DNA of 64,000 nucleotides from Fluviicola taffensis DSM 16823 (lineage in GTDB: Bacteria; Bacteroidota; Bacteroidia; Flavobacteriales_D; Crocinitomicaceae), in NCBI RefSeq assembly GCF_000194605.1, contig NC_015321.1, forward strand, positions 2,294,001 through 2,358,000. The letters run 5' to 3'. This document shows, one piece after another, positions 23,821-25,363 of the stretch. The notes beneath the pieces are model-generated. The model was not told the DNA's origin and ran no database searches. It saw only the letters and a program-made list of their open reading frames with translations. Both the position numbers and the translations under genes were made by a program. Numbering within the stretch: position 1 is the first letter of the stretch; every line of letters starts with the position of its first letter.

Positions 23821-24156
23821 ATGAGTTCAATTAGACAAAACCGAATTGAGGGTGTAATTCAAGAAGAATTGGCTACTTATTTTCAACGAAATACACAAGA
23901 GATTTGCTTGGGTGCAATGGTTAGTGTTACTATCGTTCGAGTGACTTCTGATCTATCTTTGGCGCGTATCTACCTTTCTGTTTTTATGGGTCCAGATAAA
24001 CAAGAAGTTTTGAAAAATATCCAAGTAAATTCAAAAAAAATTCGGGGCGAAGTAGGAAATCGCTTGAAGAATATGCACAAAATTCCAGAGCTTTTATTCT
24101 ACATCGATGATTCCTTAGATTACGCTGAGACGATCAATAAATTGTTGAAAGATTAA
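23821..24156 (+). CDS. rbfA: 30S ribosome-binding factor A
   Basis: A 111-residue KH-fold protein needed for late 30S maturation, binding near helix 1 of 16S rRNA. Family features are the N-terminal RQNRIEGVIQEELATYF, the central SLARIYLSVF strand and the C-terminal MHKIPELLFYIDDSLDYA, with the typical KxPxLxFxxD phrase. It is the first gene of an operon with a LolC/E-like permease, whose frame opens over the rbfA stop codon. Confidence 0.92.
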   Translation: MSSIRQNRIEGVIQEELATYFQRNTQEICLGAMVSVTIVRVTSDLSLARIYLSVFMGPDKQEVLKNIQVNSKKIRGEVGNRLKNMHKIPELLFYIDDSLDYAETINKLLKD

Positions 24157-25363
24157 AATTCCATTTTTCATAGCGCGAAGATACCTTCGACATACTCGGA
24201 AACAACGTAATCTGGTGAATTGGATTACGTGGATTTCAGTAGTTGGAATTGCGGTAATTACTGCCGCATTGGTCATTATTTTATCCGCTTTTAATGGTAT
24301 TGAGCAAATGGTTTCCAAGCTGTATTCAGATTATGATCCAGCTATAACAATGCGTTCATTGGAAGGAAAAACCTTTGATTCAACAACAGTAAATATAGAA
24401 TCTCTTCGCAAAATACCTGGCGTAGTTTCAGTTTCTAAAGCCATCGAAGAAACGGTCATCATTAAGCATGGAAAAAAATGGGTGAATGCCCGAATGATTG
24501 GAGTAGACCTTTCTTTTGTTGAAGCTTGTAAATTGGATAAACATTTAGTTGATGGTTATCCTTATTTGGAAGAAAATGGAGAACCTACAGGAGTAATTGG
24601 CGCTAGTTTGTTGGATAAAATAGATGGTTACATTTCTGAATTAGACGGACACGAAGAATTAATGCTTTATACTCCTTTGAGAGACGCTTCAATTGCTCGA
24701 TTGAAAAGCCCGTTTAAAGTTTCGCCTTTGAAAATTGTTGGTAGAATGAATTACAATAAGGATGTAAACATGTCTGACTTATTAGTTTCTATTCAATATG
24801 CCCAAATTCAATTGAATTATGAAGATGACATTACAGCGATTTATTTTCAGATAAAGAAGGAGAACATTGATGAGGTAAAAGCAATCCTTTCTCAAAAATT
24901 CGAAAAAAAATTTCAATTCAAAACGGCGGCAGAAAAGAATGAATTGATTTTTAAAACGAGTGAAAGCGAAAAGAAAATCGTGGTGCTTATTTTATTATTC
25001 ATCTTTGTATTAGCAGCTTTTAATTTAGTCGCATCATTGAATATGCTCTTTATCGAAAAGAAAGAGAACATTGAAACAATGGAGCGCTTTGGGGCAAGCA
25101 AACGATTTATTTTCCAGATATTTTTTATTGAAGGATTATTGATTTCAGCGATGGGAATTCTCATTGGGCTTATTTTAGGTATCGGGGTTTGTTATGCCCA
25201 AATAAATTGGGGATTCGTTCAGATGCCTAATACGGGAGGCGAAATATTCCCAGTAATTCTTCGGGTGAAGGATATTCTATTTATTCTAGGAACAGTGATC
25301 GTTCTAAGCACTTTATCTTCTTACTTTCCTGTCAGATACTTGGTCCGAAAAACAATTCGTTAG
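24152..25363 (+). CDS. LolC/LolE-like lipoprotein-release permease (probable ATT start)
   Basis: An inner-membrane ABC permease of the FtsX/MacB type that in its family extracts lipoproteins for transfer to the outer membrane. The first GTG (24215) begins at NWITWISVVG and would delete the conserved N-terminal segment. The frame stays open to a stop at 24146 and reads KIPFFIARRYLRHTRKQRNL before that, which is the typical LolC/E amino terminus. No ATG, GTG or TTG exists in that stretch; the best start is ATT at 24152, overlapping the rbfA stop by one base (403 residues). TM1 lies at ISVVGIAVITAALVIILSAFNG. A periplasmic domain is followed by three helices (VLILLFIFVLAAFNLV; GLLISAMGILIGLILG; ILFILGTVIVLSTLSS). 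The ATPase partner is not in the window. Confidence 0.82.
   Translation: MKIPFFIARRYLRHTRKQRNLVNWITWISVVGIAVITAALVIILSAFNGIEQMVSKLYSDYDPAITMRSLEGKTFDSTTVNIESLRKIPGVVSVSKAIEETVIIKHGKKWVNARMIGVDLSFVEACKLDKHLVDGYPYLEENGEPTGVIGASLLDKIDGYISELDGHEELMLYTPLRDASIARLKSPFKVSPLKIVGRMNYNKDVNMSDLLVSIQYAQIQLNYEDDITAIYFQIKKENIDEVKAILSQKFEKKFQFKTAAEKNELIFKTSESEKKIVVLILLFIFVLAAFNLVASLNMLFIEKKENIETMERFGASKRFIFQIFFIEGLLISAMGILIGLILGIGVCYAQINWGFVQMPNTGGEIFPVILRVKDILFILGTVIVLSTLSSYFPVRYLVRKTIR

Follow-up and report, generated by a model that had tools for sequence, protein, structure and literature searches.

ATT 24152 is predicted, by comparison with relatives, to be the start codon of a lolF-like permease gene that directly follows rbfA in the window, the 64,000-nucleotide stretch of Fluviicola taffensis DSM 16823 DNA analysed here. 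An isoleucine-type codon (ATT, ATC or ATA in the column aligned to 24152; AUU, AUC or AUA in the mRNA, collectively AUH) is found at this position across 11 genera. It belongs to an envelope transporter in a phylum described as devoid of Shine-Dalgarno (SD) sequences (PMC6847099), and is apparently kept by selection, with AUG avoided. The codon probably acts as a non-AUG translational throttle that works without an SD, and IF3, by analogy with known cases, would be its likely repressor.

The rbfA-lolF locus

The source genome is a single contig of 4,633,577 bases, and the features of the locus are collected in Table 1. The upstream gene is identified as rbfA by matches to Pfam RBFA (2.3e-28) and to TIGR00082, the latter above cut-off. 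The permease frame is bounded by TGA 24146-24148 and TAG 25361-25363 and is open in between. The sequence-only reading of this DNA had placed no ATG, GTG or TTG between that TGA and GTG 24215, and all its coordinates were confirmed. The product contains MacB_PCD and FtsX domains (Pfam). It matches the solved chains of LolC (7arh; 4.3e-21) and LolF (9w2w; 6.1e-20) over nearly their full length, from residues 4 and 3, respectively, but falls below the equivalog cut-off of the lolCE model TIGR02212 (residues 3-394; 167.9 bits against 362). With all three alignments beginning at residue 3 or 4, the segment 24152-24214 encodes the LolC/E amino terminus, as the earlier reading had maintained. There is one clear copy of the permease in the genome, the next matches reaching only 8.2e-6 and 1.7e-4. 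Since LolDF is, in addition, the commonest form among Gracilicutes, Bacteroidetes included, according to a review (PMC11784454), the permease was named LolF-like; it would belong to the inner-membrane permeases that free lipoproteins for delivery to the outer membrane.

Table 1. Features of the rbfA-lolF locus (positions within the window)
Feature	Position	Strand	Remarks
rbfA (30S ribosome-binding factor A)	23821..24156	+	ATG start, TAA stop; upstream member of the pair
A-rich tract, -13 to -10 of the start	24139..24142	+	A in 70 to 90 of 104 AUH rows
LolC/E-family (LolF-like) lipoprotein-releasing permease, 403 aa	24152..25363	+	No canonical start codon
Predicted start codon ATT (AUU)	24152..24154	+	Kept as AUU/AUC/AUA among relatives
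Codons 2-21, predicted translated amino terminus before the first GTG	24155..24214	+	3-base periodicity of changes; LolC/LolF alignment
ATA GCG, codons 7-8	24170..24175	+	Near-invariant at the nucleotide level
GTG, codon 22, first canonical in-frame codon	24215..24217	+	Rejected as a general start

Operons of lolF with lolD are described as the rule (PMC11784454), whereas no lolD gene adjoins lolF here. Its neighbours are rbfA on one side and an opposite-strand frame of 1416 aa on the other, and the best LolD-like match in the genome is unlinked (3965431-3966069) and below the TIGR02211 cut-off. A second-best LolD-like ATPase (4216807-4217466), also not beside lolF, adjoins another permease (4217524-4218120). 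No match was found in the plasmid collection searched. A permease 81% identical to that of the window is present in CP034120.1, an entry titled Glaciecola amylolytica THG-3.7 (locus L033); the title looks wrong, and the place of the match is the same as in G088, a genome of the window's own genus.

AUH codons at the lolF start in Crocinitomicaceae and beyond

Matches to the permease were obtained in 190 of 200 Crocinitomicaceae genomes, and 130 of these, mostly the best-scoring, were tabulated. Genomes listed but left out of the table include G152, G142, G154, G160, G178, G170, G159, G197, G173, G193, G199 and G162, among others; loci L163-L181 are repeat genomes or were left out as well. A comparison of start codons among related homologues, as proposed in the sequence-only reading, found AUH at the aligned codon in 104 of the 130 genomes (ATT 57, ATC 43, ATA 4; the remainder being ATG 11, TTG 7, GTG 3 and other codons 5), a share higher than in the family at large because the rows were drawn mainly from the top scores. 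The genus of the window has ATT or ATC in all 13 tabulated genomes, a fourteenth (G118) having given no match. In 96 of the 130 genomes, distributed over 11 of 19 genera, no canonical codon (ATG, GTG or TTG) occurs from the upstream stop to the conserved FIARRY motif. A canonical codon does precede the aligned position in eight of the 104 AUH rows, at a distance of no more than three codons in five of them, and in these eight that codon may be the true start.

Fifteen further family genomes (g5, g9, g11, g20, g21, g23 and g24) carry canonical codons without exception (GTG 9, ATG 4, TTG 2). Of these genera, a FastTree tree included g5 and g11, which form the first branches within the family. 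The AUH start is not universal in Crocinitomicaceae; it is kept in one large clade. Among relatives from the order and class, 78 of 80 rows were readable (ATG 18, TTG 37 plus 1, GTG 19 plus 1), and row L209 has its TTG five codons upstream of the aligned position. The ATG share of these lolF genes, 18 of 78, compares with 111 of 135 control ortholog pairs in which both genomes have ATG (136 pairs less lolF itself, which had been entered there at the downstream GTG). At the same loci rbfA has an ATG start of its own in 124 of 125 readable cases. The codon counts suggest that weak starts are the tendency of lolF across the whole class, with the weakest kind in the AUH clade. A lone ATT start outside the family, with no canonical codon before it, was seen in another family of the order (L203, genome G241), and is perhaps of independent origin.

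Sequencing error or a pseudogene as the cause of the ATT was ruled out, the codon class being kept in 104 genomes. In the literature searched, which included few subscription papers, no ATT/AUU start was reported for lolC, lolE or lolF, or in Fluviicola.

Apparent selection on the start codon

The main AUH clade comprises 109 rows, 103 of which have AUH and none ATG. The exceptions are one GTG/TTG pair, one row in which CCA follows directly on a TTG codon, and three with ACA or AAG in which TTG or GTG stands two codons before the aligned position. The third base of the codon has changed at least 27 times among AUH rows. The lack of G at this base within AUH rows is circular, given how the rows are defined, and the fair count is that of no ATG in the 109-row clade. 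For comparison, G is present in 55 of the 56 fourfold-degenerate columns of the same AUH rows. The exceptional column is codon 3 of lolF itself, a valine written GTT, GTC or GTA and in none of 82 rows GTG, possibly because a GTG there, two codons into the gene, would compete as a start.

When 141 reciprocal ortholog pairs (224 kb of this genome's 4.6 Mb against 240 kb of G088) were scanned, 20 proved to have at least five residues conserved ahead of the first canonical codon. Nineteen of these share an ATG in both genomes; the lolF pair is the only one of the 141 to combine such upstream conservation with no ATG shared by both genomes. Five of the 141 pairs had no aligned canonical pair under the rule used for the control set, and none of the five was picked out by the scan. 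It is from the absence of ATG in the 109-row clade despite at least 27 third-base changes, and from the singularity of lolF among the 141 pairs, that we infer selection for the AUH start. The same two results speak against a relaxed, unselected start in a lineage that discriminates poorly among start codons and regulates nothing by them. The ATG start of infC in all 42 AUH genomes in which it was read (see below) could go with weak IF3 discrimination, a point in favour of such relaxation; we nevertheless judge relaxation decidedly unlikely.

Choice of the initiation site

Substitutions counted on the FastTree tree, which has long branches, delimit the coding region sharply. The nine bases 5' of the start codon show 27 to 35 changes each and no periodicity, while from codon 1 on change is mostly slow at the first and second positions and fast at the third; conservation of the codon type begins exactly at the codon aligned to 24152. 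The same column holds ATG, GTG or TTG in 21 of the 130 tabulated genomes and in all 15 further family genomes. Were the aligned ATT, ATC or ATA merely an internal isoleucine codon, variation among the three would be equally expected; the exchange with GTG, TTG and ATG at that very column argues against this, as does the stop that many genomes have one or two codons before it. The proposal that ATT 24152 is the initiation codon is supported by homologues that have AUH within one clade and ATG, GTG or TTG at the same position outside it.

The start is not preceded by an SD: a run of four or more SD-like bases occurs in only 4 of the 96 AUH genomes. Of the 21 bases inspected upstream of the start, only those of the A-rich tract (Table 1) are clearly conserved; at the same positions of this genome's canonical starts, the A frequency is 0.46-0.55, weaker than at lolF.

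Conservation at the nucleotide level is also seen at codons 7 and 8. Codon 7, an isoleucine, is ATA in 122 of 129 family rows, against a mean of 0.146 in 30 other isoleucine columns (highest 0.29), and codon 8, an alanine, is GCG in 84 of 130, against a mean of 0.166 over other alanine columns. ATA followed by GCG or GCA is also shared by relatives with canonical lolF starts, and the isoleucine rows of order and class have ATA at codon 7 in 29 of 38 and 21 of 34 (counts that include four mis-anchored rows).

Several accounts of this ATA-GC element were tried. Codon-pair bias was ruled out, as the isoleucine codons that precede alanine include only 41 ATA among 306 in the stretch of this genome and 27 among 303 in that of G088. 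ATA makes up about a quarter of the isoleucine codons in the first 12 codons of genes generally (41/159 in this genome, 35/149 in G088), an enrichment that falls short of the 95% seen at codon 7 of lolF. Relief of RNA structure was likewise ruled out: in predicted folding, ATA offers no average advantage over ATT or ATC, and the other alanine codons give weaker folds at codon 8 than GCG does. Nor is it a general start-region motif, being found in 3 of 136 genes as compared to 58 of 3771 windows elsewhere. A search of Rfam returned no family, its one match being a snoRNA model far below cut-off. In a test for conserved structure, 103 rows and shuffled columns alike yielded an empty structure, a result that says little about weak structure. 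The ATA-GC element is left unexplained by codon-pair bias, folding, Rfam or a general start motif, and by the throttle model presented below.

The near-invariance of ATA at codon 7, common also in order and class, might point to AUA 24170, followed by GCG, as a second or even the main start, from which a protein beginning M-A-R-R-Y would be made; infC of ten family genomes, without a canonical start and with ATA GCN at the amino end, would offer a parallel. Initiation there is quite improbable, however, in light of the coding-type conservation of codons 1-6, part of which aligns to the LolC and LolF chains, of the ATG, GTG or TTG that relatives have exactly at codon 1, and of the lack of an A-rich tract 10-13 bases before the ATA. 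Still harder to defend is translation from GTG 24215 with codons 1-21 untranslated. Although no canonical codon precedes this GTG in the frame, the position of the first such codon is ragged in the 96 AUH genomes, ranging from codon 12 to codon 57 (beyond codon 30 in 50 genomes and beyond codon 45 in 18), and codons 2-21 evolve as coding sequence. We regard such a start as very improbable. Gene-calling programs that accept only ATG, GTG and TTG would probably mis-start lolF, here at GTG 24215.

Linkage to rbfA

The gene directly upstream of lolF is rbfA in 128 of the 130 tabulated family genomes. In the window, ATT 24152-24154 and the rbfA stop TAA 24154-24156 share base 24154, as the sequence-only reading had noted, but the reading frames overlap by 5 nt (ATTAA) and not by the 4 nt of the ATGA arrangement to which it had likened them. 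The ATTAA overlap recurs in 10 of the 13 rows of the genus and in three others; elsewhere the spacing is different. Gaps between the two genes extend from -5 to 98 bases and fall in all frames. They lie between -5 and +12 in 87 of the 102 AUH rows with a known gap and between 16 and 98 in the other 15. Translational coupling to rbfA, also put forward in the earlier reading, is on this basis tentatively plausible for most genomes but not general. In most genomes the two genes overlap or are almost adjacent, as would suit a permease made as an extension of RbfA by frameshifting or stop read-through, but the gaps occupy all three frames (40, 32 and 30 of 102), so a single frameshift or read-through event could not serve all genomes and this reading can practically be dismissed.

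Outside the family, rbfA was found just upstream of lolF in no more than 28 of the 78 rows from the order and class; most of these rows nonetheless have a weak TTG or GTG start. The weak start therefore looks like a property of the lolF gene rather than of its pairing with rbfA.

A probable translational throttle and its precedents

There is interplay between RbfA and IF3 on the 30S subunit, and conserved non-AUG starts have been described in a few bacterial genes. In the mechanism that we consider probable, fMet-tRNA would initiate at the AUH codon of lolF without an SD. The A-rich tract at -13 to -10 would assist, as would, in the majority of genomes, ribosomes that finish rbfA nearby. Initiation would occur at a low rate, and the AUH codon would thereby serve as a throttle that keeps the amount of permease under that of RbfA, which is translated from the same mRNA; it may be an inherent limit on how much exporter is produced. 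IF3 would repress this start as it does the AUU of E. coli infC and the GUC of Streptomyces sigR. The purpose of the throttle is proposed to be one of dosage: with the gene for the best LolD-like ATPase at another place in the genome, LolF and its LolD partner could not be balanced within one operon.

The AUH start of lolF would be a known kind of case, set apart by the missing SD, by its breadth (11 genera) and by the accompanying ATA-GC element. E. coli infC, the gene for IF3, has an AUU start and is autoregulated, IF3 discriminating against AUH (PMC5472188, PMC9410913). The two genes share an AUH start and differ in the target, which for lolF is an envelope transporter and not IF3 itself, so that no feedback loop would be closed; also, infC of the window's genus has ATG. 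E. coli pcnB is, like lolF, a gene other than infC with an AUU start, which is stated to limit its expression (PMC9410913, PMC13009471), though the kind of protein is different. In Streptomyces, sigR has a GTC start that is repressed by IF3 and found as GTC in 32 of 34 species and as GTT in two (PMC5472188). In both sigR and lolF one gene of a linked pair has a conserved non-canonical start, and throttling of lolF would be the corresponding consequence. By contrast, sigR has a strong SD (AGGAGGTG; PMC5472188) and its start is kept within one genus, whereas lolF has an AUH start in 11 genera and, in 92 of 96 genomes, not even a four-base SD-like run. The conserved AUH starts of S. aureus ccpN (AUA) and cvfC1 (AUU) lower initiation in reporters (PMC13009471). 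Both of these genes carry extended SD motifs, unlike the genes of Bacteroidetes, which are described as lacking SD sequences (PMC6847099). In the cases for which the context is described, sigR (PMC5472188) and S. aureus infC, cvfC1 and ccpN (PMC13009471), a strong SD accompanies the weak codon. The lolF gene lends itself to studying how a weak codon comes to be chosen where there is no SD, and whether the influence of IF3 extends to envelope biogenesis.

infC in the AUH genomes

The sequence-only reading had drawn a parallel with the feedback control of infC. As stated, this parallel is not supported in the genus of the window, where infC starts with ATG in all 13 genomes in which it was found (14 searched); IF3 might still repress the AUU start of lolF. 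It is also ATG in all 42 AUH genomes whose infC was read (25 plus 17). Ten infC loci of the family (L299, L300, L304, L305, L317, L318, L372, L377, L384 and L387, from g5, g9, g11 and g20) have no canonical start and show ATA GCN at the amino end; in the same ten genomes the lolF start is canonical throughout (ATG 4, GTG 5, TTG 1). The parallel with infC has to be inverted. Genomes with both infC and lolF canonical exist as well, for example g7. Among loci of the class and order, 11 of 29 have no canonical infC codon in the stretch examined, and 4 of these 11 have ATA GCN. These sequences suggest AUA as a possible start codon for IF3 in some Bacteroidia; Crocinitomicaceae outside the ten, AUH genomes included, have ATG.

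The opposite patterns of infC and lolF offer a testable evolutionary story. They are nested in the family and may represent one or two events. A shift of IF3 control from infC to lolF is a speculative way to read them. In its full form, an IF3-sensing start would have moved from infC to lolF, lipoprotein export would report on, or be gated by, the ratio of IF3 to ribosomes, rbfA would be carried on the lolF mRNA, and AUA-GC at codons 7-8 would be an SD-independent element of this control; we hold this to be unlikely.

Outside the family, infC loci with ATA GCN and no canonical start before the conserved part of the gene were seen at L323, L335, L337, L346 and L349. At L323 a GTG is found further downstream.
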